Notes under the pieces: model-generated
Told to the model about the DNA's origin: nothing
Seen by the model: only the letters and a program-made list of their open reading frames with translations
The model's database searches: none
Shown here: positions 14,376 to 35,322 of the stretch, in pieces
Position numbering within the stretch: the stretch's first letter is position 1
Layout of the letters: every line of letters starts with the position of its first letter
Assembly (NCBI RefSeq): GCF_002209555.1
Contig: NZ_NJIF01000008.1
Location: 1-64,000, forward strand
Source of the DNA: Achromobacter insolitus
GTDB lineage: Bacteria > Pseudomonadota > Gammaproteobacteria > Burkholderiales > Burkholderiaceae_B
Direction: 5' to 3'
Length of the DNA stretch: 64,000 bases
Made by a program: the position numbers and the translations under genes

Positions 14376-14514
14376 GTCGCAATTATTCAAGTTTTTGTCC
14401 CAGGCCTTCAAGCTGGTTTTCCCGGGGATCGCCCAAGATTCATCTATGGCTCCGTCCTGCCGCGCTCGTCGGCGCAGCGAAAGCGGGCCGATAAATCGAC
14501 AAGGGGAATCCGAC

Positions 14515-15564: not shown

Positions 15565-15577
15565 GCCGGGATAGAAC

Positions 15578-18263: not shown

Positions 18264-18299
18264 CTTTTCTTCCCTACCTTACTGTCTGGAGCCACAGTC

Positions 18300-19313: not shown

Positions 19314-19320
19314 GGTGTTG

Positions 19321-19622: not shown

Positions 19623-21221
19623 CTATTCCCGAGCGGCATCCTCCAGGATCATCTCCGCCCCCCGCTCGGCCACCATCATGACAGCGCCCTGCGTGTTGCC
19701 GGACACCATCTTCGGCATCACCGAGGCATCCACCACGCGCAGGCCGGACAGGCCGTTCACCCGCAAGCGCACGTCGGTGACGGCGGCGGCGTCGGAACCC
19801 ATGCGGCAGGTGCCTATGGGGTGGTAGATGGTCTGGCCGTTGCGCCGCGCGAAGTCCAGCCATTCGTCGTAGCTGTCCACCGCCGCGCCGGGGCTGATCT
19901 CCGATTCGATGTAGCGCCGCATGGCCGGCTGGCCGACGATGCGCCGTGCCACCTGCATGCCGCCCACCAGGCTGTCGCGGTCCACCTGGGCCGACAGGAA
20001 GTTGGGCCGGATCGCCGGCCCGGACTGCGGATCCGCCGACTTGATATGGATGGATCCGACCGACTCGGGCCGCAACTGCGCCACGCCTATCGTCATGCCT
20101 GGATGACGGTCCAGGATGCGTTCGGCCGCATTGGCGTAGCTGGCGTGCACGAAGAAGTACTGCACGTCGGGCGCCGGCAGGTCCGGCGCGCTTTTCACGA
20201 AGCCGTGCACCAGCCCCGTGCCCAAGGTCAGGATGCCCTTGTGGCTGGCGTAGTAGCGCGCCACCTGTTGCGCCAGCCGCCAACCGCGCGACATCTCGTT
20301 GAGCGTTACCGTGCCCTTCACCCGCCAGTTCATGCGGGTAGCGAAGTGGTCGATGTAGTTCTCGCCCACCTGCGGCTGCGCCAGCACCGGCGCGATGCCG
20401 AACGACTGCAGCAAGGCGGGATTGCCGACGCCGGACAGTTCGAGCAGCTGCGGCGACTGCACCGCGCCCATGCACAACAGCGTCTCGCGCCGCGCGCGCA
20501 CGATGTGCTCCTGTCCGTTCTTGCGATAGGCCACGCCCACGCAGCGTTTGCCTTCGAACACCAGCCGCGTCACGTGCGCGCCGCATTCCACCGTGAGGTT
20601 CTTGCGGCTGGAAGCGGGTTTCAGGTAGCCGTCCACCACGCTCCAGCGCCTGCCCCGATGCTGCAGCACCTGGTAGTAGCCCACGCCTTCCTGGCTGCCG
20701 CCGTTGTAGTCGGGATTCAAGGGCTGGCCGTCTTCTTGCGCCGCCTGCAGAAAGGCATCCGATATGGGAAAGCGTTCGGACACCTCTTCCAGATGCATCG
20801 GGCCGCTCTTGCCGCGGCTGGCGTCGCCGGGTTCGTAGCATTCGATCTTGCGGAAGATGCGCTCTGCCTGCTGATAGCCCCAGCCGGTGGCGCCGGCCGC
20901 CTCCCAGCCGTCATAGTCCTGCGGCTGGCCGCGGACGTAGATCATGCCGTTGATGAGTGTCGAACCGCCCACGCCTTTGCCGCGCGGCACGGCGATGGTC
21001 CTGCCGTGGACGTTGTCCTCTGGTTCGGTGGCGAAGCGCCAGTTGTATTCCGGGTTCACCAGCAGCTTGGAAAAGCCCGCCGGTATCGAGATCCACATGC
21101 TGCGGGCTTCATGCCCGGCCTCCAGCATCAGCACGCGGTACTTGCCGTCGGCGCTCAGGCGGTTGGCCAGGATGCAGCCCGCCGTGCCGCCCCCGGCGAT
21201 GATGAAGTCGTAATCGCTCAT
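19623..21221 (-). CDS. GMC-family FAD-dependent alcohol dehydrogenase (choline dehydrogenase-like)
   Basis: This 532-residue protein has the FAD-binding GxGxxG (IIAGGGTAG, residues 7-15), the GMC signature GKGVGGSTLINGMIYVRG (about 84-101), a second GMC motif near GAVQSPQLLELSG (about 260), and the catalytic His region IYHPIGTCRMG with SGNTQGA near the end. It oxidises a primary alcohol to an aldehyde and passes electrons to the respiratory chain. Frames open further upstream overlap the next gene; the ATG at 21221 starts the FAD fold and is preferred. It is last in the leftward transketolase/AroE-like operon, so it probably acts on an alcohol in the same pathway. Confidence 0.9.
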   Translation of the reverse strand: MSDYDFIIAGGGTAGCILANRLSADGKYRVLMLEAGHEARSMWISIPAGFSKLLVNPEYNWRFATEPEDNVHGRTIAVPRGKGVGGSTLINGMIYVRGQPQDYDGWEAAGATGWGYQQAERIFRKIECYEPGDASRGKSGPMHLEEVSERFPISDAFLQAAQEDGQPLNPDYNGGSQEGVGYYQVLQHRGRRWSVVDGYLKPASSRKNLTVECGAHVTRLVFEGKRCVGVAYRKNGQEHIVRARRETLLCMGAVQSPQLLELSGVGNPALLQSFGIAPVLAQPQVGENYIDHFATRMNWRVKGTVTLNEMSRGWRLAQQVARYYASHKGILTLGTGLVHGFVKSAPDLPAPDVQYFFVHASYANAAERILDRHPGMTIGVAQLRPESVGSIHIKSADPQSGPAIRPNFLSAQVDRDSLVGGMQVARRIVGQPAMRRYIESEISPGAAVDSYDEWLDFARRNGQTIYHPIGTCRMGSDAAAVTDVRLRVNGLSGLRVVDASVMPKMVSGNTQGAVMMVAERGAEMILEDAARE

Positions 21222-21244
21222 TCGGGTCCGTATCCTGTGTCGGC

Positions 21245-22048
21245 CTACTTGGCTGCGTCCACGCCCAGCATCTGCGCCATCAGTTCGATCTGGCATGCCA
21301 GCATCGGCGCCCCATAGTGCACCTTGCAGCCGCGGGCCTGCGCCGCCAGCAGCAAGGCCGTGTCCTTGGGTTGCATGATGACTTCGCAGACCAGTTGTTC
21401 CGGCGTCAGGCGGCTGGCATCCAGCGGCAAGGCATCGTCGGGCTTCATGCCCAGCGAGGTGCCGTTGACCACCAGGTCGTGCCCCGAGGGATCGGCCGTG
21501 CCCACGTCGATCCGGGCACCGGGATGCAGCGACAGGATGCGCGCCTTCAGGTCCTCGGCCTTGGCCGTCGTGCGGTTGGCGATGGTCAGCCGCGACACGC
21601 CTGCCTGGACCAAGGCGAAGCCGATTGCATTGGCTGCGCCGCCCGCCCCCGCCAGATAGGCGCTCTTGCTCTGCGGCGACACGCCCGCGCTTTGCAGTCC
21701 GCGCACGAATCCCTCGCCGTCCAGCATGTGCGCCACCAGCTTGCCGTCCGCCTCGCGGCGCACCACGTTGGCCGCGCCGATCTTGCGCGCCACCGGCGTG
21801 GCGTCGTCGACCAGTTCCAGGATGGCGGTCTTGTGCGGAACGGTAATGATGACGCCGCCGAGGTTCTCCAGGCGCCGCAGGCCGGCGACCACTTGCGCCA
21901 GGTTGTCCGGCCTGGCGTGAAACGGCACGCACACGCCATCAAAGCCGATGGCGGCGAAATGCTCATTCATGCGCTGCGGCGTCTTCACGTGGTGGATGGG
22001 GTCGGCCAGGATGCCGAACAGGCGCGTGGTTCCGGTAATTTCCTTCAT
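21245..22048 (-). CDS. AroE-like dehydrogenase with an atypical substrate site
   Basis: This 267-residue protein has shikimate dehydrogenase architecture. The catalytic Lys is in TVPHK (about 71) and the catalytic Asp in DGEGF (about 109), and the nucleotide site AGAGGAANA plus an NRT motif indicates NADP preference. The canonical shikimate-holding HSxSP segment is replaced by HHVKTP (about 19-24), so both Ser contacts are missing and true shikimate dehydrogenase activity is doubtful. It lies between the GMC oxidase and the split transketolase in one leftward operon controlled by GntR, so it is probably a catabolic paralogue acting on another cyclic or polyhydroxy substrate. Confidence 0.85.
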   Translation of the reverse strand: MKEITGTTRLFGILADPIHHVKTPQRMNEHFAAIGFDGVCVPFHARPDNLAQVVAGLRRLENLGGVIITVPHKTAILELVDDATPVARKIGAANVVRREADGKLVAHMLDGEGFVRGLQSAGVSPQSKSAYLAGAGGAANAIGFALVQAGVSRLTIANRTTAKAEDLKARILSLHPGARIDVGTADPSGHDLVVNGTSLGMKPDDALPLDASRLTPEQLVCEVIMQPKDTALLLAAQARGCKVHYGAPMLACQIELMAQMLGVDAAK

Positions 22049-22063
22049 GGTCGTCTCCGAGGC

Positions 22064-23050
22064 TCAGGGCTGCAGTGATGCGCGCGCGACTTCGGCGATG
22101 CCGGCGGCGTCCAGCTTGTAGTGGGCATACAGGGTGGTGGGCGGCGCGATCAGGCTGTACTCATCGTAAATGCCATGGCGGCGCAGACGCGTGCCCGTGC
22201 CCGCGTCCGCCAGGACCTCGGCCACGGCCGAGCCCAGTCCGCCCAGCACGTTGTGCTCTTCCGCTGTCATGAGCAAGCGGGATTTGCCCGCAGCAGCCAG
22301 CACGGCATCGCGGTCCAGCGGTTTGATGGTGGGCATGTCGATCACGCCGACCGACAGGCCTTCGCCCCGCAACTGCTCGGCCGCCGCCAGGGCTGCGTGC
22401 ACGGTGATGCCGCAGGCAATGATGTTCAGGTCCGTCCCGCTGGAATGCACGATGGCGCGGCCGAACTCGAATGGCACGCCGTCTTCATAAACCTGCGGGT
22501 CGCGGCCGCGGCCGATGCGGAAGTAGATTGGCTCGGGCCAATCCACCGATGCCTTGATGGCCGACGCGAGCTGCGGCCCGTCGGCGGGCGAGACCACGGT
22601 CAGGCCCGCCAGCGCGCGCATCGTCGAGATATCTTCAGTGGCATGGTGCGAGGTGCCGTAAAAGCCCAGGCTTATGCCGGTATGGTGGCCTATCAGGCGC
22701 ACGGGCAGCTTGGTATAGGCAACATCCATGCGGATCTGCTCGCAGCACAGCAGGCCCAGGAAGGAAGCGAAGGTTGCGACGAAGGGCATCATGCCTGTCG
22801 TCGCCAGGCCTGCCGCCGCCGACACCATGTTCTGCTCGGAAATGCCGAATTGGACATAGCGATCGGGATAGGCCTGCGCAAAGCGATTCAGGCCGTTGGA
22901 ATACTGCAGGTCGGCCGAGCCAGCCACCACCGGATGCCCGGCCTGCGCCAAGTCGATCAACGCGTCGGACAGATAGGACAGCCCGGGATTCACCGCATTC
23001 AGGGCGCGGTATTGCCAGGAGTCGGGAGAGAGGACTTGTGCCTGTGCCAT
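22064..23050 (-). CDS. transketolase, C-terminal half
   Basis: This 328-residue protein carries the pyrimidine-binding domain (ISEQNMVSAAAGLA near 70-83, with the activating Glu) and the C-terminal domain of transketolase. It needs the N-terminal half encoded immediately upstream; the start ATG directly abuts that gene's stop, so the subunits are coupled. Split transketolases of this kind occur in specialised catabolic loci rather than as the housekeeping enzyme, and would move a two-carbon ketol unit between a ketose and an aldose phosphate. Confidence 0.9.
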   Translation of the reverse strand: MAQAQVLSPDSWQYRALNAVNPGLSYLSDALIDLAQAGHPVVAGSADLQYSNGLNRFAQAYPDRYVQFGISEQNMVSAAAGLATTGMMPFVATFASFLGLLCCEQIRMDVAYTKLPVRLIGHHTGISLGFYGTSHHATEDISTMRALAGLTVVSPADGPQLASAIKASVDWPEPIYFRIGRGRDPQVYEDGVPFEFGRAIVHSSGTDLNIIACGITVHAALAAAEQLRGEGLSVGVIDMPTIKPLDRDAVLAAAGKSRLLMTAEEHNVLGGLGSAVAEVLADAGTGTRLRRHGIYDEYSLIAPPTTLYAHYKLDAAGIAEVARASLQP

Positions 23051-23908
23051 TCAGATCTCGCGGGAAAGGATTTCGTCGACGGCGCTTTGCGCGTCTTGCG
23101 GCGCCAGATAGCCCAGGTGCCAGCCGGGCTCCGTTTCCATATAGGACACGCCTTTGCCCTTGACGGTCCGGGCGATGACGCAGGCGGGCTTGCCACGCGC
23201 CTGCTCTGCGCGCAGGCGCCGCAGCAGGGCGGTCAGTTCCGACAGATTGTGGCCGTCCACTTCGTGCACTTCCCAGCCGAAGGCCTGCCATTTGTCTTTC
23301 AGCGACTCCACGCCCATGACGTCGTCGACCTTGCCGTCCAGCTGGTAGCCGTTGCGGTCGACGATGGCGATCAGGCGCGACAGGCGGTTATGCGCGGCGA
23401 AGAGCGCCGCCTCCCAGACCTGCCCTTCCTGCATTTCGCCGTCGCCCAACAGCACGAAGACATTGAAATCGCGCCCGTCCATGCGCCCGCCCACCGCCAT
23501 GCCCACGCCGTTGGACAGCGCGTGGCCAATGGAGCCCGAGCTGAAATCCACCCCCGGCACCTTGCTCATGTCGGGGTGGTCGCCCAAAGGGCTGCCCAGC
23601 CGGGTGTATCCGTCGAGCAGTTCGCGGTCGATGAAGCCGTGATCGGCCAACACCGGAAAGAGGCCCACCGCCGCATGGCCTTTGCCCATCAGGAAGCGGT
23701 CCCGGTCAGGCCACTGAGGCTCGCCCGGCCGCAGGCGCATCACGTCGTAGTACAACGCGGCGAAGATTTCCGCGCACGAGAACACCGAACTGTAGTGCCC
23801 GACCTTGGCGATTTCGATCAGTCTGATTGTCTCCAACCGGATGTGGCGGGCCTTTTCCCGCAACATTCCGATTTCCCCTTCTGTGGGGGCCTCCCTGTCA
23901 CTTCTCAT
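23051..23908 (-). CDS. transketolase, N-terminal half
   Basis: This 285-residue protein is the TPP diphosphate-binding half: GHAAVGL near 76, DFSSGSIGHALSNGVG (122-137), and the TPP motif GDGEMQEGQVWEA with Mg-binding Asp (about 154-166). It is first in the leftward operon with the C-terminal half, the AroE-like enzyme and the GMC oxidase. An A/T palindrome just upstream (23932-23944) matches operators at two other promoters and probably binds the divergently encoded GntR protein. Confidence 0.9.
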   Translation of the reverse strand: MRSDREAPTEGEIGMLREKARHIRLETIRLIEIAKVGHYSSVFSCAEIFAALYYDVMRLRPGEPQWPDRDRFLMGKGHAAVGLFPVLADHGFIDRELLDGYTRLGSPLGDHPDMSKVPGVDFSSGSIGHALSNGVGMAVGGRMDGRDFNVFVLLGDGEMQEGQVWEAALFAAHNRLSRLIAIVDRNGYQLDGKVDDVMGVESLKDKWQAFGWEVHEVDGHNLSELTALLRRLRAEQARGKPACVIARTVKGKGVSYMETEPGWHLGYLAPQDAQSAVDEILSREI

Positions 23909-23931
23909 GGCGCTTCCTTTTCGCTGTTAGG

Positions 23932-23944
23932 ATATATGATATAT
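23932..23944. promoter_or_regulatory. GntR operator, site 1 of 3
   Basis: ATATATGATATAT lies in the 126-bp gap between the transketolase operon and the GntR gene. The same 13-mer occurs inverted at 28790-28802, and with one mismatch at 28578-28590. It sits inside an A/T-rich patch containing TATAAT-like -10 sequences on both strands, so binding would block both promoters. Confidence 0.7.
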
Positions 23945-24034
23945 AATATACCCATTGAGCTCGAATTGGCCATGGCGGGATAGAATTCACCCCGAATCCA
24001 CCCGCCCCATCAATACAGCAAGCCTGAGCCTGTC

Positions 24035-24739
24035 ATGTCCAGCCTGAAACCGGTAAAGAAAGAGAACCTGTCCGTCAGGGTCTACAACGAAATCCGCAAT
24101 GCCCTGATCAACGGGCAGTACGAACCCGGCGAGCGCCTGATCATCGGCGAATTGGCCCAGGAAATGGGCGTCTCCATCACGCCCGTGCGCGAGGCAATCT
24201 TCCGGCTGATCAGCGAACAAGGCCTGGAGATGCAGGCGGCCACCGCGGTCTACGTGCCCTACGTCAATTCTGAAAAACTGCGCGAAATCCAGCAGATCCG
24301 TTTCCACCTGGAAGGCATGGGCGCGGCCGAGGCCGCCCAGCACATCACGCGCAAGCAGCTGGACAACCTGATCGCGCTGCAACGGGACTTCATCTCCTGC
24401 ACCTCCAGTGACCCCAAGCGGGCCAGCTACCTGAACCGCAAGTTCCACTTCGCCATCCTGGAAGCCAGCAACAAACCCATCCTGCGCGCCACGGTGGAAT
24501 CGTTCTGGGTGATCACCGGCCCCATCCTCAAGGTGTTCCACGTCAAGACGTCGGGGCTGGACTATTCGCAGAATGAACACCGCCACGAGGCCGTGCTGGA
24601 AGCCCTGGAAGCCCGCGACTCCGAGGCGGCCCGGCAAGCCATCCAGGCCGATCTGGTCTGGGGCGGCAAGATCATGATCGACTGGCTGGTCGAGCGCGAA
24701 AAGGAACTCGACTACCGTCCTCCCGCAGCCCGTAAATAG
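24035..24739 (+). CDS. GntR-family regulator, FadR/VanR (FCD) subfamily
   Basis: This 234-residue protein has a winged HTH at residues 8-75 (YEPGERLIIGELAQEMGVSITPVREAIFRLISE) and an all-alpha FCD effector domain at about 80-225 with the His/Asp/Glu ligands typical of metal-assisted carboxylate sensing (HRHEAVLEAL). It is divergent from the transketolase operon and upstream of the polyol dehydrogenase. The shared 13-bp operator at three promoters points to it as the local regulator, probably a repressor relieved by a pathway acid. The ribosome site is weak. Confidence 0.9.
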   Translation: MSSLKPVKKENLSVRVYNEIRNALINGQYEPGERLIIGELAQEMGVSITPVREAIFRLISEQGLEMQAATAVYVPYVNSEKLREIQQIRFHLEGMGAAEAAQHITRKQLDNLIALQRDFISCTSSDPKRASYLNRKFHFAILEASNKPILRATVESFWVITGPILKVFHVKTSGLDYSQNEHRHEAVLEALEARDSEAARQAIQADLVWGGKIMIDWLVEREKELDYRPPAARK

Positions 24740-24760
24740 GCAAACCCGAAGGAATCTCCC

Positions 24761-25831
24761 ATGCTGAAGATTTTTGGCGCACCCAGCCGCTACATCCAGG
24801 GTGCCGGCGCCCTGGACACCCTGGGACAGTACGCAGCCCTGTTCGGCCGCCGGGCGGCCCTGGTCATCGACAGCTATGTGCACGGCGTGCTGGGGCCAAG
24901 AATCGAAGCCCTGTGCGCGGCGCAGCAGGTATCGCTGGTGCCGCTCATCGTCGAGGGCGACCTGACGCCGGACGTGATCACGCAATTGAGGGCGCAGGCG
25001 GCGCCTGCCGGCATCGACATGGTGATCGCGGTGGGCGGTGGCAAATCGCTGGACGCCGGCAAGGCAGTGGCTAAATCCTCGCACTGCCATCTCATCACCG
25101 TGCCCACCGTCGCATCCAACGACGCGCCGACGAGCAAGAATTACGTTCTGTACGACGCCCATCACAATCTCCTGGCGGTGGAGCACATGCTGTTCAATCC
25201 CACGATCGTGCTGGTGGACACCGCGGTCATCGCGACCGCCCCCGCGCACTTCTTCCGAGCCGGCCTGGGCGACGCGGTCTCCAAGAAGTTCGAAGCCGAA
25301 CAATGCGGCCGCAATGGCGGCCGGAACATGTACGACGCCGCGCCTCCCCTTACCGCGCAGTACATCGCCGACGGCTGCCTGCGCACCCTGCTGGCCGACG
25401 GCGCCGAAGCCGTGGCCGTCGCCGGCAGCGGCCAGCCCACGCCGGCGTTCGAACGCGTGGTGGAAGCAATGATCCTCATGAGCGGACTCGGTTTCGAAAG
25501 CGGCGGCCTTTCCATCGCCCATGCGTTGACACGCGGACTGCCGAAGATCAGCGGTGTTGCCGCCGCCCCGCACGGCCTGCAGGTGGCCGTCGGCCTGCTG
25601 GTGCAACTGGACCTGGAGAACCGGGCGGACGGCATGCTGGCCGAATTGACCCGCTGGTACGCCCAGGTAGGCTTGCCCACGAGCTTGCGCGGACTGGGCG
25701 CGGCCGAAGCACCGTCCGACGCGGAATTGAAGCTGGCGGCGGAACTGAGCCTGAAGGCCCGCCACGCCGCCAACTTCGATCGCGAGCTGGATACGGACAC
25801 CTTGGCCGCCGCGTTGCGCCGCCGCGCCTGA
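24761..25831 (+). CDS. iron/zinc-containing polyol dehydrogenase, glycerol dehydrogenase-like
   Basis: This 356-residue protein is a class III (iron-containing) alcohol dehydrogenase of the GldA branch. It has an NAD-binding GGGKSLD loop (about 94-100), TVPTVASNDAPTS (115-127), and metal ligands from GLGDAVS (Asp, about 170), SIAHALTRGL (His, about 251) and APHGLQVAVG (His, about 268). It interconverts a polyol and a ketone using NAD. AAGGAATCTCCC precedes the start; it follows the GntR gene by 21 bp and is probably co-transcribed with it. Substrate other than glycerol is likely given the context. Confidence 0.85.
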   Translation: MLKIFGAPSRYIQGAGALDTLGQYAALFGRRAALVIDSYVHGVLGPRIEALCAAQQVSLVPLIVEGDLTPDVITQLRAQAAPAGIDMVIAVGGGKSLDAGKAVAKSSHCHLITVPTVASNDAPTSKNYVLYDAHHNLLAVEHMLFNPTIVLVDTAVIATAPAHFFRAGLGDAVSKKFEAEQCGRNGGRNMYDAAPPLTAQYIADGCLRTLLADGAEAVAVAGSGQPTPAFERVVEAMILMSGLGFESGGLSIAHALTRGLPKISGVAAAPHGLQVAVGLLVQLDLENRADGMLAELTRWYAQVGLPTSLRGLGAAEAPSDAELKLAAELSLKARHAANFDRELDTDTLAAALRRRA

Positions 25832-25867
25832 TATCGCGGAGGCCGGCCAGGCCGGCCCCCTTGGACA

Positions 25868-26803
25868 TCAGAACGCGACGTTGTCCTTGCCCTTCAAATC
25901 CAGTTTGGCGCGCGCTTCCTCAGGCGTGGCGATTTCCAGGTTGAGCGCCTCCAGGATGGTGCGGATACGCTCCACCTGAACCTGATTGGATTTCGCCATT
26001 TCGCCCGGGCCGATCCACAGCGAATCCTCCAGCCCCACCCGCACGTTCGACCCCATTGCCGCACCGATGGTAGCCAGCGGCATCTGGCCCCGACCTGCCC
26101 CGAGGATCGACCATTCATAGTCGTTGCCAAACAAACGGTCAGCGGTGCGCTTCATGTGCATGAGGTCTTCGGGATGCGGACCGATGCCGCCCAGGATGCC
26201 GAATACCGACTGGATGAAGGGCGGCGACTTGACCAGGCCGCGGTCCACGAAATGCGCCAGGTTGTACAGATGGCTGATGTCGTAGCACTCGAACTCGAAG
26301 CGGGTGCCGTTGGCGTTGCCCAGCGTGAGGATGGATTCAATGTCCTGGTAGGTATTGCGGAAAACCAGCGAACGGCTGTTCTCCAGGTGTTCGCGCTCCC
26401 AGTCGTGCTTGAATTCCTTGAATCGACCCAGCATCGGATACAGGCCGAAGTTCATGGACCCCATGTTCAGCGACGCCAGCTCCGGCTTGAAGGTGGTGGC
26501 CGGGCGCATCCGTTCTTCCACGGTCATGTGGGGACTGCCGCCCGTGGTGATATTGATGATGGCGTCCGTTTCCTGCTTGATCCGCTCCAGGAAGGGCTTG
26601 AACAGCGCCGGGTCCTGCGACGGCTTGCCGGTCTGCGGATCGCGCGCATGCAGGTGCAGGACCGCCGCGCCCGCCTTGGCCGCGCCGATGGCCGCTTCCG
26701 CGATCTCGTCGGCGGTGACCGGCAAGTGAGGCGACATGCTGGGCGTGTGGATCGCACCCGTCACGGCGCAAGTGATGATGACTTTCTGCTTGGGCTTAGC
26801 CAT
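25868..26803 (-). CDS. beta-keto acid cleavage enzyme (BKACE, DUF849)
   Basis: This 311-residue TIM-barrel protein of the BKACE family has the zinc-binding HLHAR motif (about 50-54) and the partner Glu/His in the late barrel (GLEDSLWIG, about 258-266). The family condenses a beta-keto acid with acetyl-CoA and cleaves it to acetoacetate and a new CoA ester. It overlaps by 8 bp the preceding 3-hydroxyacid dehydrogenase gene, which would supply the beta-keto acid: the same enzyme pair as in carnitine breakdown (L-carnitine dehydrogenase plus BKACE). Substrate is unknown here. Confidence 0.9.
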   Translation of the reverse strand: MAKPKQKVIITCAVTGAIHTPSMSPHLPVTADEIAEAAIGAAKAGAAVLHLHARDPQTGKPSQDPALFKPFLERIKQETDAIINITTGGSPHMTVEERMRPATTFKPELASLNMGSMNFGLYPMLGRFKEFKHDWEREHLENSRSLVFRNTYQDIESILTLGNANGTRFEFECYDISHLYNLAHFVDRGLVKSPPFIQSVFGILGGIGPHPEDLMHMKRTADRLFGNDYEWSILGAGRGQMPLATIGAAMGSNVRVGLEDSLWIGPGEMAKSNQVQVERIRTILEALNLEIATPEEARAKLDLKGKDNVAF

Positions 26804-27752: not shown

Positions 27753-28534
27753 CAGTAGAGCTTCTGCGTGAAGCCGTCCACCACGATGGCCTGCCCGGTG
27801 ACACTGCGGGCGGCCTCGCTGGCGTTGAACAGCACCATGTTGGCGATATCGCGCGCCGTGACCATGCGGCCCAGCGCCGCCTGGTTCTCGTATTGCGCGG
27901 CGATCTCTTCCACCGGACGGCCCAGCGTATCCGCCTTGGCCGCGATGACCGCGCGTATGCGCGGCCCCTCGACCGCGCCCGGCAGAATGGCGTTGACGCG
28001 GATGCCATGCGGCCCCAGCTCGATGGCCAGGGACTTGGTGAATCCGATCACCGCCCACTTCGAGGCCGAATAGACGGAGCGTCCGGCGAAACCCAGGTGG
28101 CCGGCCGCGGAGGACAGGTTGATCATCACGCCGGCCTTGGACTCCTTGAGCAAGGGGATCGCCTGGCGGGCGCATAGGAATTGCCCGGTGATGTTCACGG
28201 CCAGCGTCCGGTCCCAATCTGCCTTGGACAGGGTTTCCACATAGCCGGTGGGCCCGGCCACGCCCGCGTTGTTCACCAGGATGTCCAGGCCACCAAGTTT
28301 GGCGCGCACCTGATCAAAGAGCGCGGCAACGCTGTCCTCGTCCGAGACGTCGGCCAGCGCGGCGTGCACGCCGGGCAGTTCGGCCGGCAGCGCAGCCAGG
28401 CGCTCCTGGTTCACATCGCACACGAATACGGAGGCGCCAGCATGGCGGAACACCTTCGCCATCTCCAGGCCCAGCCCGTCCGCGCCGGCGGTGATCAGCA
28501 CCCTTTTCCCGGCGAAATCCACTTCCTCGAACAT
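27752..28534 (-). CDS. short-chain dehydrogenase/reductase
   Basis: This 260-residue classical SDR has the cofactor motif TAGADGLG (about 15-22), the NNAG motif (about 89-92), and the catalytic Ser-Tyr-Lys as LSSAAG (about 142) and YSASK (about 157-161). Acidic D41 after the second strand suggests NAD. It is first in the leftward operon with the beta-hydroxyacid dehydrogenase and BKACE, with a GntR-type operator 44-56 bp upstream. It probably oxidises a hydroxyl of the imported compound before beta-keto cleavage. Confidence 0.85.
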   Translation of the reverse strand: MFEEVDFAGKRVLITAGADGLGLEMAKVFRHAGASVFVCDVNQERLAALPAELPGVHAALADVSDEDSVAALFDQVRAKLGGLDILVNNAGVAGPTGYVETLSKADWDRTLAVNITGQFLCARQAIPLLKESKAGVMINLSSAAGHLGFAGRSVYSASKWAVIGFTKSLAIELGPHGIRVNAILPGAVEGPRIRAVIAAKADTLGRPVEEIAAQYENQAALGRMVTARDIANMVLFNASEAARSVTGQAIVVDGFTQKLY

Positions 28535-28577
28535 GCCTCTGTCTCCTAGATTTTTATGTAAAAGCGGCCGATTGATG

Positions 28578-28590
28578 ATATACGATATAT
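28578..28590. promoter_or_regulatory. GntR operator, site 2 of 3
   Basis: ATATACGATATAT differs from site 1 at one base. It lies 44-56 bp upstream of the SDR gene start, a normal place for a repressor site on that leftward promoter. Confidence 0.65.
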
Positions 28591-28789
28591 GAAAAAAGCC
28601 GCTACTTCCGGATGTTTCCGCTCGCCGTCAGATCCGCCAAACCGTGTCATCCAGAAGCAGGGTAAACCCATGAATTTGCGCAGGATCATCCCGCTAAGTC
28701 TTTATTCATGCGGCTTTAGGGAATTCCCCGATTCGGCGGGTTACGACCCCAACTAGAATCCAAGGCGGGGTTTGCTACCCGGCCGGCAG

Positions 28790-28802
28790 ATATATCATAT
28801 AT
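28790..28802. promoter_or_regulatory. GntR operator, site 3 of 3
   Basis: ATATATCATATAT is the exact reverse complement of site 1 and lies 62-74 bp upstream of the transporter binding-protein start codon. With the other two sites it marks the outward promoters of the locus as one regulon. Confidence 0.7.
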
Positions 28803-28863
28803 TCAAAAAAAGACGGACCAACCAAGAAAGTCCGCATCCCATACCGACAAAGGAGCGTAGACA

Positions 28864-30063
28864 GTGTTCAAGTTCAACAAAATTGCTTTGGCGCTGGGCC
28901 TGTGCGGCGCGCTGGCAAGCGGCACCGCAGCAGCCGACATGAAGGTGGGCGCACTCTTCCCGTTCAGCGGCGCGCTCGCGCTCCTGGGGCAGGAGAGCTA
29001 TCGCGGCCTGGAGCTGGCCGTCAATGAAATCAATGCAGCGGGTGGCGTCAACGGCGAAAAGATCGAGATCATCAAGGCCGACGCGGTCGACCCGACCCAA
29101 GCCGTGTCGGAAACCAAGCGCCTGATTTCCTCCAACGTGGTCGGCGTGTTCGGCAGCTACGCTTCCGGCATTTCCTACGCGGCCTCGCCCGTCACGGAAT
29201 TGGCCGGCGTGCCCTACTTCGAGCTGGGCGCCACTGCGCACAAGATCACCACCCGTGGCTACAAGTATCTGTTCCGCAGCAACCCCAACACCGCGCTGTA
29301 CGGGGTGTCGGTGGTCAATGCGCTGCACGACACCATCGCGCCGGGCATGGGACTGAACCCGAAGGACATCAAGATCGGCATCATCCACGAGGACGGTCCC
29401 TACGGCACCGACGTGGCCGCCACGGAGAAAAAACGCGCCCAGGAACTGGGCTACACGGTTGCGGAAGTGCTCCCGTATTCGGCCAAGACCGTCGACCTGT
29501 CCTCGCTGATCCTGCGCCTGAAGGGAGCCAAGGTCGACGTGGTGCTGCAGACCGCCTACCAGAACGATGCCATCCTGTTCTTCAGCCAGGCGCGTGCCGC
29601 GGGCTTCAAGCCCAAGGTCGTGATCGGCGCGGGCGGCGGCTATTCGTTGGCCGACACGGCCAAGGCCGTGGGCGCCGACATGAATGGCGTGTTCGACCTG
29701 GACTTCCCCCAGGCTTCCATCAACCCGGCTGGCGCGCCAGGCCTGGACAAGTTCCTTGAAGCCTACAAGTCCACCTACAAGAGCGACCCGCAGTCCGGCC
29801 ACAGCCTGACCAACTACGTCGGCGCCAAGGCCTTCTTCGAAGCCATCGGCAATGCCAAGTCCACGGACAAGGACAAGATCCGCGCGGCGGTGCTGGCCTA
29901 CAAGAAGCCGGCCGGCCAGACTGCCAACGGCTGGGCCTTCGACTTCGGTGAAGACGGGCAGAACAATGCATCCACGTTCTACGTGATGCAGTGGCAGGAC
30001 GGCAAGCTCGTCACCATCGCACCCGGCAACCTCGCACTCGGCAAGCCCATTTTCAAGAAATAA
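28864..30063 (+). CDS. ABC transporter substrate-binding protein, LivK-like
   Basis: This 399-residue periplasmic protein has a GTG start with AAGGAG 9 nt upstream, a signal peptide of about 24 residues (ALGLCGALASGTAAA), and the type I two-lobed binding fold of branched-chain amino acid receptors (VGALFPFSGALALLGQES, EIIKADAVD, GVFGSYAS). In catabolic loci such proteins often bind aromatic or hydroxy acids rather than leucine. It heads the transporter operon and has a GntR operator in its leader. Confidence 0.9.
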   Translation: MFKFNKIALALGLCGALASGTAAADMKVGALFPFSGALALLGQESYRGLELAVNEINAAGGVNGEKIEIIKADAVDPTQAVSETKRLISSNVVGVFGSYASGISYAASPVTELAGVPYFELGATAHKITTRGYKYLFRSNPNTALYGVSVVNALHDTIAPGMGLNPKDIKIGIIHEDGPYGTDVAATEKKRAQELGYTVAEVLPYSAKTVDLSSLILRLKGAKVDVVLQTAYQNDAILFFSQARAAGFKPKVVIGAGGGYSLADTAKAVGADMNGVFDLDFPQASINPAGAPGLDKFLEAYKSTYKSDPQSGHSLTNYVGAKAFFEAIGNAKSTDKDKIRAAVLAYKKPAGQTANGWAFDFGEDGQNNASTFYVMQWQDGKLVTIAPGNLALGKPIFKK

Positions 30064-30175
30064 ACGCCTAGCCAGTGCTCAGGCGCTCGGGGGCGCCTGA
30101 TGATTCCCGGAGTCCGCGCGCCCGGGTCCGGCCGAATTCACGGCCGGGCCCGGGCCGCAGCTAAGAGGTTGCAAC

Positions 30176-31042
30176 ATGGAACTATTCATTCAACTGGTCA
30201 TCAACGGCCTGTTGCTGGGCGGCGCATACACCATCATCAGCCTAGGGCTGACGCTGATTTTCGGCGTGGTGCGGGTCGTGAACTTCGCGCACGGCGAATT
30301 CCTCATGATAGGCATGTACATGGTCTATCTGATCGCGGCGCAATTCGGGGTGCATCCCTACGCCGGCCTGGTGCCGGTCGCCATCATCCTGTTCGCGCTG
30401 GGCGCGCTGACGCAAAAGGGCATCATCCAGCCGCTGCTCAACGCCGACCAGCACATCCAGATTTTCGCCACGGTGGGCGTGTCCACCATCCTCCTGAATC
30501 TTGCCCTGGTGATCTTCGGCGCCAACGTCTATCGCGCGCCGGTCGAACTGGGCACCAGCGCCATCGACGTCGGCCCCTTTTCGATGGTGACCGGGCAACT
30601 CGTCACGTTCGTGATCGGCCTGAGCCTGGCGGTGCTGCTGCACCTGTTCATGCACCGTACCTACCTGGGCCGCGCGTTGCGCGCCGTGGCCCAGCACCGC
30701 TACGCCGCCACGCTGATGGGCGTGAACGTCAACAACGTCTATGCCATCGCATTCGGGCTGGGCACGGCTTTCGTCGGCATTGCCGCCGGTTTGCTGGCGC
30801 CGCAGTATCCGGTGTTTCCCACCGTGGGCACATACTTCGTGCTGACGGCATTCGTGATCGTGGTGCTGGGCGGACTGGGCAGTCTGTACGGTGCCGTGGC
30901 CGGCTCCATGATCATCGGCATCGTGGACACGCTGGCCGGCTTCTACATCGCCCCCGACCTGAAAGAGGTCGTTTATTTCGGGATCTTCCTCTTGATCCTG
31001 GTGCTGCGCCCGAACGGCCTGTTCGGCGTCGGCACAGAGTGA
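30176..31042 (+). CDS. ABC transporter permease, LivH-like
   Basis: This 288-residue protein has about eight hydrophobic segments and the LivH pattern (INGLLLGGAYTIISLGLTLIFG at the N-terminus, VRVVNFAHGEFLMIG, and GGLGSLYGAVAG near the C-terminus). It is one half of the inner-membrane channel and partners with the fused LivM-LivG encoded next. Confidence 0.9.
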   Translation: MELFIQLVINGLLLGGAYTIISLGLTLIFGVVRVVNFAHGEFLMIGMYMVYLIAAQFGVHPYAGLVPVAIILFALGALTQKGIIQPLLNADQHIQIFATVGVSTILLNLALVIFGANVYRAPVELGTSAIDVGPFSMVTGQLVTFVIGLSLAVLLHLFMHRTYLGRALRAVAQHRYAATLMGVNVNNVYAIAFGLGTAFVGIAAGLLAPQYPVFPTVGTYFVLTAFVIVVLGGLGSLYGAVAGSMIIGIVDTLAGFYIAPDLKEVVYFGIFLLILVLRPNGLFGVGTE

Positions 31043-31064
31043 TCAGAGCAACAAGGAGCGAGAC

Positions 31065-32846
31065 GTGTTTCCCGATATTCGACACCCCAAGACTTACGTC
31101 AGCCTCATCCTGCTGATCGCGATGTTCCTCTTGCCCGTGATCATGGGCACGCCCTTCTGGACCAATCTGTTCGTGCTGCTGTTCGTGTTTTCGGCCCTCT
31201 CGGTGGCCTGGAACATCGTGGGCGGCTATGCCGGCCAACTGTCCCTGGGCCATGCGGTGTTCTATGGCATCGGCGGCTATACCGCGACCCTGCTGACGCA
31301 GAACTTCGGTATTTCCCCCTGGTTCGGCATGCTGGCCGGCGCGGCGATCTCCGGAGCGGTCGCCATCCTGATCAGCTACCCCACCCTGCGTTTGCGCGGT
31401 CCGTTCTTCGCGCTGGCCACCATCGCAATCCTGGAGGTGGTGCGCCTGCTGGTCATCCACGAAGAAAGCTGGACCGGCGGCTCCAGCGGCATCAGCCTGC
31501 CGCTGAACATAGGCTGGACCTGGATCGTGTTCCGCGAGAAGGTCAATTACGTGATCATCGCGTTCGCCCTGTTCCTGCTGGTAACCTGGGTATCGTGGTA
31601 CATCCGCAAGTCGCGGATCGGCCACTACCTGATCGCGATCCGCGAACGCGAGGACGCGGCGCTGGCCGTCGGCATCCATACGGTGCGCATGAAGATCATC
31701 GCGGCGGTGGTGTCGGCCATGCTGACGAGCATCATCGGCACGTTCCACATCACCTATCTGACCTTCGTGGATCCCAGCTCGGCGTTTTCGCTGGAACTGT
31801 CGATCCAGGTCGCCATGTTCGCCTTGATCGGCGGCCTGGGCACCGTGGCCGGCCCCATCGCCGGCACCTTCCTGGTGCTGCCTATTGCCGAATTGGCGCG
31901 CGGCTGGCTCAGCAGCGTGGGCAACGGCATGCACGGCCTGATCTACGGCCTGATCCTGGTGGCGGTGGTGCTGACCATTCCCCGCGGCCTGGCCGGCGCC
32001 TTCGGTCCCGCCATCGAGCGCTGGCTGTCGCGCCTGCCCTACCTGGGCACGCCCCGCGCCAAGCTCAAGCTGGCCGACGAACTGCGGCTGCACAGCGCCG
32101 AACGTTCGGAGCAACCGGTGCTCAAGGCCGACAAGCTGTTCAAGAGCTTCGGCGGGCTGCGCGCCACCAACGACGTGTCGCTCACGCTGAACCAGAACGA
32201 GATCCTGGGCATGATAGGCCCGAACGGCGCGGGCAAGACCACGGTGTTCAACTTGCTGTCTGGCTTCCTGTCTCCGGACAAGGGCGGCATCAGCATGCTG
32301 GATGCGCACGGCAAGTGGGTCACCTGCAAGACGCCCGATGAGTTCGCGCACCAGGGACTGGGTCGCACCTTCCAGATCGCCAAGCCGTTCACCGGCCTGA
32401 CGGTGCTGGAGAACATCATGCTGGGCGCCTTCATCCGGACGTCGAACCGGGACGAAGCCGAGCAGATCGCATTGAAGGTTGCCGAACAGACCGATCTGGT
32501 GAAGTACCTGGGCATCGAGGCGCGCAACTTGACCGTAGGCGGCATGAAGCGCCTGGAGGTTGCGCGCGCGCTGGCGATCAAGCCGCGCATCCTGCTGCTG
32601 GACGAGGTCATGGCGGGCCTGAACCCCACCGACATCGAAAAGTCGATCCAGATGATCCGGCGCATCCGCGATTCGGGCGTGTCGGTGCTGCTGATCGAGC
32701 ACATGATGCAGGCCACCATGGCGCTGTCCGACCGCATCATCGTGCTGAATGAAGGCGCGGTGCTGGTCAGCGGCGCGCCCAAGGACGTGGTCGAGAACCC
32801 AGCCGTCATCGAAGCCTATTTGGGCAAGGAGTACCAGGATGCTTAA
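31065..32846 (+). CDS. fused LivM permease-LivG ATPase
   Basis: This 593-residue protein is encoded from a GTG start with AAGGAGCGAGAC upstream. Residues 1-320 form the LivM permease (AWNIVGGYAGQLSLGHAVFYG, GGLGTVAGPIAG). A linker of about 25 residues leads to a LivG ATPase (about 345-593) with Walker A GPNGAGKTT (near 384), an unusual signature LTVGGMKRLE in place of LSGGQ, and Walker B LLLDEVMAGL. Channel and ATPase are normally separate genes. The next gene starts 8 bp before its stop. Confidence 0.9.
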   Translation: MFPDIRHPKTYVSLILLIAMFLLPVIMGTPFWTNLFVLLFVFSALSVAWNIVGGYAGQLSLGHAVFYGIGGYTATLLTQNFGISPWFGMLAGAAISGAVAILISYPTLRLRGPFFALATIAILEVVRLLVIHEESWTGGSSGISLPLNIGWTWIVFREKVNYVIIAFALFLLVTWVSWYIRKSRIGHYLIAIREREDAALAVGIHTVRMKIIAAVVSAMLTSIIGTFHITYLTFVDPSSAFSLELSIQVAMFALIGGLGTVAGPIAGTFLVLPIAELARGWLSSVGNGMHGLIYGLILVAVVLTIPRGLAGAFGPAIERWLSRLPYLGTPRAKLKLADELRLHSAERSEQPVLKADKLFKSFGGLRATNDVSLTLNQNEILGMIGPNGAGKTTVFNLLSGFLSPDKGGISMLDAHGKWVTCKTPDEFAHQGLGRTFQIAKPFTGLTVLENIMLGAFIRTSNRDEAEQIALKVAEQTDLVKYLGIEARNLTVGGMKRLEVARALAIKPRILLLDEVMAGLNPTDIEKSIQMIRRIRDSGVSVLLIEHMMQATMALSDRIIVLNEGAVLVSGAPKDVVENPAVIEAYLGKEYQDA

Positions 32847-33543
32847 GGTTTCGAATCTGTCCTCCGGCTACGGCAAGAGCCAGGTCCTGACCGGCCTGAA
32901 TTTCGAAGTGAACGCGGGCGAGATCGTCACGCTGATCGGGGCCAACGGCGCCGGCAAGACCACCACGCTCAAGACCCTGTGCGGAGTCATCGGCGCAATG
33001 GAAGGCAAGGTCGAGTTCGAAGGCCAGGACCTGACCAACCGCAAGCCCTATGACATCGTGGACGCGGGCATCACGATGATTCCCGAAGGTCGCCAGTTGT
33101 TCCCGCACTTCACCGTGCGCGACAACCTGCTGATGGGTTCATACAAGCGCGCCGCGCGTCCCATCGTGCAACGCAAACTGGACGAGGTGCTGGGCATCTT
33201 CCCGCGGGTGAAGGAACGGTTGAACCAGTATGCCGGCTCGCTCTCGGGCGGCGAACAACAGATGGTCGCAATTGCGCGCGGCATGATGGCCGACCCCAAG
33301 CTGCTGGTGTTCGACGAGCCTTCGCTAGGACTGTCGCCGCTGCTGGTGCAGCAGATGTTCGACATCATTCGCGGCGTCACCGCGCATGGCGTGACCGTGC
33401 TACTGGTAGAACAGAACGTGTTCCGCACCCTGCGGCTGGCGGACCGGGGCTATGTGCTGGAGAACGGAGCGATCGTGCGCACCGGCACCGGCGCGGAATT
33501 GCTGAGCGACCCGCATGTAAAGAAGGCCTACCTGGGCCATTGA
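32839..33543 (+). CDS. ABC transporter ATP-binding protein, LivF-like
   Basis: This protein of 234 residues is the second ATPase of the Liv-type importer. It has Walker A GANGAGKTT (about 35-43), signature LSGGEQQM (about 137-144) and Walker B LLVFDEPSLGLSP (about 155-167). The ATG at 32839 is in frame with the domain and overlaps the LivM-LivG gene by 8 bp; a longer frame upstream is a shadow. Confidence 0.9.
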   Translation: MLKVSNLSSGYGKSQVLTGLNFEVNAGEIVTLIGANGAGKTTTLKTLCGVIGAMEGKVEFEGQDLTNRKPYDIVDAGITMIPEGRQLFPHFTVRDNLLMGSYKRAARPIVQRKLDEVLGIFPRVKERLNQYAGSLSGGEQQMVAIARGMMADPKLLVFDEPSLGLSPLLVQQMFDIIRGVTAHGVTVLLVEQNVFRTLRLADRGYVLENGAIVRTGTGAELLSDPHVKKAYLGH

Positions 33544-33562
33544 TACCGAGGATCCATTTTTT

Positions 33563-34558
33563 ATGTCTTTACGCTGCACATTCATCGACCATGGCCAGGG
33601 CGGCGCGCCCGATTGCATGCGCCTGGCTGAACGCGATATGGAGACGCCCGCCGGCCGGCAGGTGCTGATTGAAGTCGCTTACGCGGGCGTCAACCGGCCC
33701 GACGTGCTGCAACGCTCCGGCTCGTATCCGCCGCCACCGGGGGCCTCGCCCTACCTCGGGCTGGAGGTGTCCGGCACCGTCATCGCCACGGCCCCCGAAG
33801 CCAGCCTCTGGAAGGTCGGCGACCAAGTCTGCGCGTTGACCCCAGGTGGCGGCTATGCGCAATACTGCCTGGCCGACGAACGCCATTGCCTGCCGGTGCC
33901 GCGCGGCCTGGACCTGCTGACGGCCGCCGCCATCCCCGAGAACTACTTCACGGTCTGGACCAACGTGTTCGACCGCGCCCGGCTGGCAGCGGGCGAGCGG
34001 TTCCTGGTGCACGGCGGCTCCAGCGGCATCGGGCTGACGGCAATCCAGCTGGCGCGCGCCTTCGGCGCCGAAGTCTGGACCACCGTGGGCAACCAGGAAA
34101 AGGCCCAGGCCTGCCTGGCCGCCGGCGCGCACCACGCCGTGCTGTACCGTGACACCGACTTCGAGGCCGAGGTGCGCCAGGGCAGCGGCGGCCCGGGGGT
34201 GGACGTGATCCTGGACATGGTGGGCGGCGCTTACATCAACAAGAATCTGCGGCTGCTGGCGGTCAACGGCCGCTTGGTGCAGATCGCTTTCCTGGAGGGC
34301 AGCAAGGCCGAGATCGATGCCATGCCCATCATGATCAAGCGCCTGCAGTTCACCGGGTCCACCCTGCGTCCCCGCTCCGATGAAGACAAGGGTGCGATCG
34401 CCCGCGCGCTGGCGGAGAAGGTGCTGCCCTTGATGGAGCAGGGGCAATGCCTGCCGCGGATACATCAGGTGTTCCCGCTGGCCGAGGCAGCCCAGGCGCA
34501 TGCGCTGATGGAAAGCAGCAGGCACATCGGCAAGATCATGCTGAAGGTGGCCGCATGA
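33563..34558 (+). CDS. zinc-free medium-chain dehydrogenase, NADPH:quinone oxidoreductase-like
   Basis: This 331-residue MDR-superfamily protein lacks the zinc ligands. It has AGVNRPDVLQRSGSYPPPPG (the PIG3/TP53I3-type quinone oxidoreductase signature) near 42-61, a Rossmann domain with GGSSGIG (about 150-156), and the C-terminal MESSRHIGKIML. It reduces a quinone or an enone with NADPH. It lies 20 bp after LivF and overlaps the next SDR gene by 4 bp, so it is the downstream part of the GntR-controlled transporter operon. Confidence 0.85.
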   Translation: MSLRCTFIDHGQGGAPDCMRLAERDMETPAGRQVLIEVAYAGVNRPDVLQRSGSYPPPPGASPYLGLEVSGTVIATAPEASLWKVGDQVCALTPGGGYAQYCLADERHCLPVPRGLDLLTAAAIPENYFTVWTNVFDRARLAAGERFLVHGGSSGIGLTAIQLARAFGAEVWTTVGNQEKAQACLAAGAHHAVLYRDTDFEAEVRQGSGGPGVDVILDMVGGAYINKNLRLLAVNGRLVQIAFLEGSKAEIDAMPIMIKRLQFTGSTLRPRSDEDKGAIARALAEKVLPLMEQGQCLPRIHQVFPLAEAAQAHALMESSRHIGKIMLKVAA

Positions 34559-35322
34559 GCGCGCGTTTCAAGGATCAGGTCGCCATCGTGACCGGCGCGG
34601 TCGGCGGCATCGGCTCGGCCATCGTAGAGGGTTTCCTGGCCGAAGGCGGTCGCGTGGGACTGATCGATTTCAATTCGCAGGGCGGCCAGGCCTACGAGAA
34701 GGAACTGCGCAAGCACGGCCACGAAGTCTGCTTCGTGCACGCGGACGTTGCGCGCTTCGAGGAATGCCAGGCAGCCTATGAGCGTATCAGCCGCGAGCTG
34801 GGCGCCGCCACCATCCTGGTCAATAACGTCGGTATTTCGCCGAAGACGGACGGCCGCGCGCTGAAGGTCTGGGAGATGCCCCCCAGGGAATGGGAGAACG
34901 TGGTCGCCGTCAATCTGAACAGCGTGTTCTACATGACGCATCTGGCCACGCCGCACATGGTGCGCGAACGCCAGGGCCGTGTGATCAATATGTCATCGGT
35001 GGCCGGCCGGGCCTATTGCGACATCGTGGCCGCGCACTACGCAGCCACCAAGGCTGGCCTGATCGGCCTGACGCGCCACTGGGCCGCCGAGCTGGGCGAG
35101 CACCAGGTCACGGTCAACGCCCTGGCACCGGGACGGATCAGCACGCCCTTGCTGAAGACCGTGCCCAAGGAGATCAACGACGCCGTGGCGCAGGTGACCG
35201 CGCTGCGCCGCCTGGGCACGCCCGAGGAAGTGGCGGATGCCTGCCTGTTCTTCGCGTCGGATCAAGCCCGCTTCGTGACCGGCCAGGTGCTGGACGTGGC
35301 CGGTGGCTGGCTCATGACCTGA
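34555..35322 (+). CDS. short-chain dehydrogenase/reductase
   Basis: This 255-residue classical SDR has TGAVGGIG (about 12-19), the NNVG motif (about 86-89) and catalytic INMSSVAG with HYAATK (about 143-163). Asp37 after strand 2 suggests NAD(H). The ATG at 34555 overlaps the stop of the quinone-oxidoreductase-like gene (ATGA), so the two are translated together. It is the last gene of the transporter operon and is followed by a GC-rich hairpin. It probably acts on the same imported substrate as the SDR at 27752-28534; the two SDRs are not obviously duplicates. Confidence 0.85.
   Translation: MSARFKDQVAIVTGAVGGIGSAIVEGFLAEGGRVGLIDFNSQGGQAYEKELRKHGHEVCFVHADVARFEECQAAYERISRELGAATILVNNVGISPKTDGRALKVWEMPPREWENVVAVNLNSVFYMTHLATPHMVRERQGRVINMSSVAGRAYCDIVAAHYAATKAGLIGLTRHWAAELGEHQVTVNALAPGRISTPLLKTVPKEINDAVAQVTALRRLGTPEEVADACLFFASDQARFVTGQVLDVAGGWLMT

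Follow-up and report, generated by a model that had tools for sequence, protein, structure and literature searches.

A putative GntR-controlled gene set of Achromobacter insolitus combines a two-subunit transketolase of altered pocket with a beta-keto acid cleavage enzyme

Which compound could require a transketolase, a beta-keto acid cleavage enzyme (BKACE), a series of dehydrogenases and an importer, all encoded side by side? The question is raised by 15 intact open reading frames that fill positions 19623..35322 of a 64-kb stretch of DNA from Achromobacter insolitus, which was analysed as a whole and is referred to here as the window. The genes are arranged in four blocks: a left-reading block for a GMC oxidoreductase, an AroE-like dehydrogenase and the C- and N-terminal subunits of a split transketolase; a right-reading block for a GntR-type regulator and a GldA-like dehydrogenase; a left-reading block for BKACE, a 3HCDH-type dehydrogenase and a first short-chain dehydrogenase/reductase (SDR1); and a right-reading block for LivK, LivH, a LivM-LivG fusion, LivF, a quinone oxidoreductase-like protein (QOR) and a second short-chain enzyme (SDR2). 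A preliminary description of this DNA had interpreted them as one catabolic system. All 15 genes that it named are present as open frames, and the names agreed with the families found for the 12 that were scanned against Pfam and/or NCBIfam; the names of LivH, LivM-LivG and LivF come from inspection by eye and from synteny. We propose, giving the idea about an even chance, that the set represents one GntR-controlled regulon through which a single polyhydroxylated acid or polyol would be imported and broken down by way of the transketolase and BKACE.

Within Achromobacter the set is kept together. In a sample of 42 genomes of the genus, 40 carry at this locus a BKACE at least 92% identical to that of the window, and the two that do not are G007 (best BKACE 67%) and G033 (best BKACE 31%, in a genome that is 57% complete). 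All 15 genes are present in 35 of these 40 loci. Two further loci (L162 and L186) are cut by contig ends, and three lack single parts with the flanking genes in place, namely both transketolase genes in L031 and L173, and the genes for the 3HCDH-type dehydrogenase and QOR, absent together, in L034. In the genome of L173, the only one checked for copies elsewhere, no transketolase C subunit was matched at E 1e-75 in a search across the order. Achromobacter aegrifaciens and A. xylosoxidans carry the named transketolases nearest to that of the window. Outside the genus, all 15 genes were also found in Comamonas sp. JUb58 (L102) and in another genus of the family (L036), all but QOR in a further genus (L035), and all genes within reach of the stretch in Bordetella sp. 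LUAb4 (L117) and Bordetella genomosp. 1 (L139), so that the joined form is known from Achromobacter, Bordetella, Comamonas and two further genera; in some of these sets outside Achromobacter the importer operon has moved. Matches in an order-level search with the transketolase (3 of 399 genomes at E 1e-75) and in a class-level search with the AroE-like protein (7 of 369 genomes at E 1e-30) were too rare to be informative.

A common operator precedes the operons of the set. Three intergenic spaces of the set contain the AT-rich, almost palindromic 13-mer ATATAYGATATAT. When up to one mismatch is tolerated, the pattern occurs three times in the window (mean of 0.02 in shuffled sequences) and nowhere else in the 6.44-Mb genome. 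Since the pattern was derived from the three window sites themselves, the independent evidence consists of its absence elsewhere, its conservation in congeners and its presence at the loci of relatives in other classes. Each of the 38 uncut congener loci has three operators; the two that contig ends cut short have two apiece. Among the joined loci of other genera, Comamonas has three, L035, L036 and Bordetella L117 have two and Bordetella L139 has one, the stretches of both Bordetella loci ending within the locus. For a wider comparison five aligned transketolase C subunits served as the query in a scan of 84,980 species genomes, which gave 195 confirmed places, and the best 80 of these were studied together with their neighbours within about 10 kb. 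These 80 loci contain 93 operator sites with at most one mismatch, distributed over 41 loci, whereas the reversed pattern gives 14 sites and three shuffled patterns give 6, 2 and 0. A GntR copy of at least 44% identity is present in 29 of the 80. With up to two mismatches, a count made without a control, operators precede transketolase, GldA, AroE, GMC, importer and aldehyde-dehydrogenase genes of other classes. No operator was found at any of 14 BKACE loci that have no transketolase. The word regulon in the preliminary description is supported by these sites, as is its view of one dedicated system in which importer and catabolic enzymes are kept together in the genus, and the GntR regulator is proposed to act at all three operators, to which it would presumably bind.

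The same survey separates the set, by gene content, into two modules. Module 2 consists of GntR, GldA, the AroE-like enzyme, the split transketolase and often GMC, and recurs together with the operator in Pseudomonas, Shinella, Variovorax, Citrobacter and others; module 1 consists of the short-chain enzyme, the 3HCDH-type dehydrogenase, which resembles lambda-crystallin, and BKACE. At a threshold of at least 38% identity, AroE-like genes were found near the transketolase in 36 of the 80 loci, GldA genes in 33 and both in 31. BKACE is encoded in 14 of the 80, always together with the AroE-like enzyme and GldA. Another 17 loci have AroE-like and GldA genes and no BKACE; one of them, L081, is an Achromobacter contig cut short, which leaves 16 from other genera, in whose stretches of about 10 kb no BKACE was found. 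An operator with no more than one mismatch is present in 13 of these 16, and if two mismatches are tolerated every one of the 16 has an operator. Conversely, SDR1, the 3HCDH-type dehydrogenase and BKACE occur together, with neither transketolase nor operator, in L038, L039, L043, L044 and L047, in all of which except L044 they stand beside Liv proteins of 24-40% identity. SDR1 copies of 69-83% identity adjoin BKACE in L035, L036, L038 and L039, and QOR copies of at least 55% identity occur at the transketolase loci L133, L142 and L147. The set conserved across genomes that the preliminary description had envisaged is found in the genus and in some relatives; elsewhere each of its two modules also stands alone.

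The history of the joining was approached with a midpoint-rooted tree whose 78 rows are the transketolase C subunits of the window and of 77 of the 80 loci; the rows were labelled by gene content with example families checked. Two large sides (100/98) of 43 and 35 rows were obtained. The former holds 20 of the 21 AroE/GldA rows, all 16 BKACE rows, 5 of the 9 unlabelled rows and 2 of the 27 aminotransferase rows; the latter holds the other 25 aminotransferase rows, all five rows with a luciferase-like monooxygenase, four unlabelled rows and one AroE/GldA row (L070). The 16 BKACE rows, which comprise the 14 loci, the window and also L081 because its Achromobacter contig is cut short, form one clade (100/94). 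The joining consequently looks like one event in beta-proteobacteria, by which BKACE would have been added to a wider transketolase/AroE/GldA regulon, as read from the transketolase tree, with the history of the BKACE gene lying outside it.

Modules that occur apart could also mean that one regulator governs two separate pathways, in which module 2 and module 1 consume different compounds, either the halves of a composite (an ester, ether or glycoside) or a co-occurring acid. Module 1 on its own in five loci, module 2 in 16 loci of other genera with no BKACE in the stretches read, and congeners that have lost the transketolase alone or the 3HCDH-type dehydrogenase and QOR alone would all fit such an arrangement. 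However, the set contains a single importer, and its joined form is retained in nearly all congeners sampled as well as in Bordetella and Comamonas, and we therefore consider two independent pathways unlikely.

The proposal of a single regulon draws further on the active site of its transketolase, which was aligned with Escherichia coli TktA together with 73 orthologues, namely all those among the 80 loci with both subunits recognised. In the window the N and pyr/C domains reside on adjacent genes, as in two-subunit transketolases, and in its enzyme and all 73 orthologues H26, H66, H100, D155, N185, D381, E411, F434 and H473 are kept. For the positions other than R358, H461 and R520 we assume the roles commonly given to them in TktA, with E411 as catalytic residue, D155 and N185 as Mg/ThDP ligands and S385, like H461 and R520, at the phosphate site. 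In contrast to the canonical pocket, defined by R358, S385, D469, H461 and R520, R358 is lost, E468 is replaced by F and D469 by Y, again in the window enzyme and all 73 orthologues. The residue opposite R358 in the window enzyme is S in one alignment and L in another, and Arg in neither; H261 stands opposite a gap in all sequences and was left out of the argument. Eight more distant homologues (L053-L060) lack the pocket motif HHTGISLGFYGTSHH and carry different residues at this place in the alignment. The loss of R358 together with E468F and D469Y throughout the clade suggests a non-standard ketol substrate. When E. coli TktA was changed at R358, H461 and R520, it converted the non-phosphorylated 5-ketogluconate into tartaric semialdehyde (PMC12016104), and among two-subunit transketolases Rif15 transfers a C2 unit to rifamycin S in vitro (PMC6002545) and for DesAB a role in taking the C2 side chain off cortisol has been proposed (PMC3735941). 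The so far undescribed clade with the motif GFYGTSHH might represent an exchangeable ketol-harvesting tool, used in three or more kinds of catabolic cluster (AroE/GldA, aminotransferase and flavin monooxygenase) to strip a non-phosphorylated intermediate of a C2 ketol, an idea that we advance tentatively and with more doubt than confidence.

Alternatively, the transketolase could scavenge aldehydes, joining formaldehyde or glycolaldehyde to a unit from a ketol donor so that dihydroxyacetone or erythrulose is formed and passed to GldA. Such a function would be in line with the closeness of GldA to glycerol dehydrogenases, with the retention of most of the phosphate site in the transketolase, and with loci of the family that contain aminotransferases or luciferase-like monooxygenases from which aldehydes could be released. 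Neither a dihydroxyacetone kinase nor a methyl-releasing enzyme is encoded among the 15 genes, however, and the loss of R358 with E468F/D469Y would be better explained by a changed ketol pocket, which makes scavenging distinctly improbable.

Several other genes recur at transketolase loci. Those of Xanthobacter and others (L097, L126, L144 and L079) encode a ChrR-type cupin family, the L097 member of which matches PF12973; cupins of this type presumably include an alpha-hydroxyketone-cleaving dioxygenase. Genes of four-carbon-acid-type kinases (PF07005/PF17042, checked for L079) are present at nine loci of Acidisoma and rhizobia (L079, L109, L110, L118, L128, L130, L132, L143 and L146), seven of which also have class II aldolase genes (checked for L109, PF00596); these genes may point to a C4 sugar acid as intermediate.

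The remaining enzymes of the proposed regulon were compared with curated models. The AroE-like protein misses every shikimate-dehydrogenase cut-off (AroE/YdiB; best aroE model 164.3 versus 200.2 bits) and has HVKTP at the site of the HSxSP motif, which reads HSLSP in 2egg, 3tnl and 3t4e; by these cut-offs it is not a shikimate or quinate dehydrogenase, and a shikimate/quinate pathway was rejected. Its relatives include a 5-ketofructose reductase (PMC7954740). GldA is close to glycerol dehydrogenases, just below the NF006941 cut-off (325.1 versus 336 bits), and scores only 25.7 bits as AroB, and cyclitol biosynthesis through a transketolase, an AroB-fold enzyme and AroE was likewise discarded. 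PF05853 spans the whole BKACE protein. BKACE also exceeds the cut-off of the 3,5-dioxohexanoate model NF053538 (567.8 versus 430 bits), as do all three other BKACEs compared, one paralogue and two relatives from other settings (541.7, 576.4 and 557.1 bits), and the name of this model was for that reason dropped as a substrate clue. The LivK-type protein falls outside the leucine-binding subfamily PRK15404, since it scores 132.4 versus 477 bits, and no ligand clue was obtained from its closest solved relative, a literature search on the code 8wch having found nothing; a sugar-binding protein at a relative's locus (L129) matches sugar-type binding proteins in general only.

Phloroglucinol degradation would employ SDR1 as ring reductase, the 3HCDH-type dehydrogenase in the formation of triacetate, BKACE as triacetate acetoacetate-lyase and the AroE-like enzyme on the ring. 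The same three families as in module 1 occur together in Clostridium scatologenes (PMC10470551), and the NF053538 score of BKACE points in this direction; on the other hand, all three other BKACEs compared exceed that cut-off too, no ring-opening enzyme of the 'cyclase' family was found among the 12 scanned genes (the other three being importer parts), and the transketolase and importer would be left unexplained, so that we regard this pathway as very improbable. The breakdown of a quaternary amine of the choline or carnitine type is suggested by the relatives of GMC and the 3HCDH-type dehydrogenase among choline and carnitine dehydrogenases, and BKACE takes part in carnitine breakdown. GMC, however, stays below both choline-dehydrogenase cut-offs (PRK02106, 540.3 bits with 605 needed; betA, 458.1 versus 732.1), and the 3HCDH-type dehydrogenase, which the preliminary description had called carnitine-dehydrogenase-like, stays far below those for carnitine 3-dehydrogenase (190.3 versus 592) and L-carnitine dehydrogenase (176.5 versus 414); the only model it passes is PRK06129 and its closest solved proteins are the lambda-crystallins 3ado/3f3s, so that this name has to be given up and the corresponding pathway is scarcely probable.

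Paralogues of two of these enzymes were noticed in the same genome, which has seven BKACE-family matches. One of these BKACEs (L048) is 69% identical to that of the window, has counterparts of 66-70% in many congeners and adjoins a short-chain enzyme and a periplasmic binding protein. At L064 (C21:594500-614400) a second AroE-like gene (44%) lies beside another Liv importer set and SDR genes.

In the single-regulon proposal, the Liv-type importer would take up a polyhydroxylated acid or polyol, and GldA, the natural candidate for the conversion of a terminal diol to a ketol, would oxidise it to a terminal ketol, R-CHOH-CO-CH2OH. Other hydroxyls would be oxidised by the AroE-like enzyme, responsible for another keto/hydroxy step, and by the SDR enzymes, and a primary alcohol by GMC. 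The two-subunit transketolase would then move the C2 ketol to an aldose phosphate, which would enter the pentose phosphate pathway, and leave R-CHO. The chain that remains, presumably a beta-hydroxy acid whose carboxylate adjoins a CH2 group, would be converted by the lambda-crystallin-like dehydrogenase and/or SDR1 to a beta-keto acid, and BKACE with acetyl-CoA would turn the latter into acetoacetate and an acyl-CoA, much as proposed for deoxyribonate. The substrate class, the order of the steps and the direction of each redox step are those that the gene content appears to favour. Acetoacetate, a CoA ester and a ketose had already been surmised as products in the preliminary description, to which the sequence adds the unusual transketolase pocket. 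At the loci of relatives the leftover aldehyde could be taken by aldehyde dehydrogenases, either of the SSADH cluster, found at 7 of the 16 BKACE-free module-2 loci (the member in L101 passes SSADH models, and in L127 and L136 the operator directly precedes the gene), or of a PuuC-like type, also present among the examples scanned.

A number of observations speak against this pathway or narrow it. No aldehyde dehydrogenase gene is found among the 15 genes of the window. The two congener loci that lack only the transketolase genes and the one that lacks only 3HCDH and QOR disfavour a strictly linear pathway and suggest branches instead. The phosphate-site residues S385, H461 and R520 are kept in the window enzyme and all 73 orthologues, so that its partners may yet be phosphorylated, and two of these three are changed in the TktA variant that forms tartaric semialdehyde. 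In addition, the transketolase of the BKACE-free locus L070 lies on the opposite side of the tree, and members of the same family stand beside aminotransferases or flavin monooxygenases with no AroE/GldA genes, which may indicate a broader transketolase substrate. As for the clue from AroE relatives, a second shikimate-dehydrogenase-like protein failed to reduce 5-ketofructose in the assays described (PMC7954740).

The positions of all genes and operators are given in Table 1. Between the GMC gene and the next gene (19320-19619) there is a GC-rich 83-bp unit repeated 3.6 times (93% match), in each copy of which inverted repeats were seen by eye. The adjoining region 14368-19313 contains spermidine/putrescine-type ABC genes (by eye) and, at 18300-19313, a gene of the proline racemase/hydroxyproline epimerase family, which is 96-99% conserved beside the set in many congeners and scores below all six listed cut-offs.

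Table 1. Genes and operator sites of the set, in window coordinates.
Feature	Position	Strand	Family, model or basis
GMC oxidoreductase (alcohol to aldehyde), last in transketolase operon	19623..21221	-	PF00732/PF05199
AroE-like dehydrogenase	21245..22048	-	PF08501
Transketolase C-terminal subunit (pyrimidine-binding and C domains), pocket motif HHTGISLGFYGTSHH	22064..23050	-	PF02779, PF02780
Transketolase N-terminal (ThDP-binding) subunit	23051..23908	-	PF00456
Operator site 1, between transketolase operon and GntR gene	23932..23944	.	ATATAYGATATAT match
GntR/FCD-family regulator	24035..24739	+	PF00392, PF07729
GldA-like iron-type alcohol dehydrogenase	24761..25831	+	PF00465
BKACE (acetyl-CoA dependent)	25868..26803	-	PF05853, 368.7 bits, residues 7-303
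Lambda-crystallin-like (3HCDH) beta-hydroxyacid dehydrogenase	26796..27752	-	PRK06129, 455.2 bits (cut-off 347)
SDR1, first gene of BKACE operon	27752..28534	-	family scan
Operator site 2, upstream of SDR1	28578..28590	.	ATATAYGATATAT match
Operator site 3, upstream of LivK	28790..28802	.	ATATAYGATATAT match
LivK-type periplasmic binding protein	28864..30063	+	closest solved relative 8wch
LivH permease	30176..31042	+	by eye; kept in 40/40 congener loci
LivM-LivG fusion (permease and ATPase, single frame)	31065..32846	+	by eye; kept in 40/40 congener loci, with 90% or more of the length matched in each
LivF ATPase	32839..33543	+	by eye; kept in 40/40 congener loci
QOR, PIG3-family NAD(P)H quinone oxidoreductase-like	33563..34558	+	TIGR02824, 452.9 bits (cut-off 296.8)
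SDR2, last gene of importer operon	34555..35322	+	PF13561

A clade of two-subunit transketolases that spans alpha-, beta- and gamma-proteobacteria is delimited here by operator, synteny and pocket residues, and the regulon joins this clade to BKACE chemistry. In the open-licence PMC literature searched we found neither a function for the clade nor, in agreement with the preliminary description, a pathway that joins a transketolase, an AroE-like enzyme and BKACE. Identifying the substrate would put a name to a carbon source accessible to most of the sampled Achromobacter genomes and would allow many 'shikimate dehydrogenase' and 'glycerol dehydrogenase' annotations to be corrected. Moreover, it might yield a natural transketolase for non-phosphorylated ketols that is useful in tartaric-type chemistry.

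Among known systems, the apulose-4-phosphate transketolase is a split enzyme from a catabolic cluster with a phosphorylated donor. To our knowledge, neither its cluster nor that of the sulfofructose transketolase includes AroE or BKACE. The sulfofructose transketolase likewise belongs to a catabolic cluster, with a sulfonated donor unlike the one proposed here (PMC11659671). The preliminary description named deoxyribonate breakdown as a precedent for BKACE; for BKACE combined with a 3-hydroxyacyl-CoA-dehydrogenase-like enzyme, phloroglucinol breakdown, not mentioned there, can be added. In deoxyribonate oxidation an SDR enzyme and BKACE, both also encoded in the window, have been proposed, with mutant data, to cleave a beta-keto sugar acid with acetyl-CoA; the word transketolase is absent from the main text of that paper, and an AroE-like enzyme, GldA and a Liv importer do not appear in its relevant passages (PMC6365646). 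The phloroglucinol cluster of C. scatologenes (PGR-DPGC-TfD-TAL) similarly unites an SDR, a 3-hydroxyacyl-CoA-dehydrogenase-like enzyme and BKACE, but has the ring-opening DPGC, which the set lacks, and as described contains no transketolase (PMC10470551). The steroid-17,20-desmolase DesAB of Clostridium scindens differs in its steroid substrate, its anaerobic host and a desABCD cluster described without BKACE or AroE, and its transketolase activity is put forward there as a hypothesis; like the window enzyme, however, it is a two-subunit transketolase beside a dehydrogenase and a transporter, with a proposed role in the removal of a C2-ketol side chain (PMC3735941). Finally, the transketolase that cleaves 5-ketogluconate is an engineered single-chain E. 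coli enzyme in which H461 and R520, kept here, were changed, but it resembles the enzyme proposed here in its non-phosphorylated ketol-acid donor and in having R358 among its changed residues (PMC12016104).

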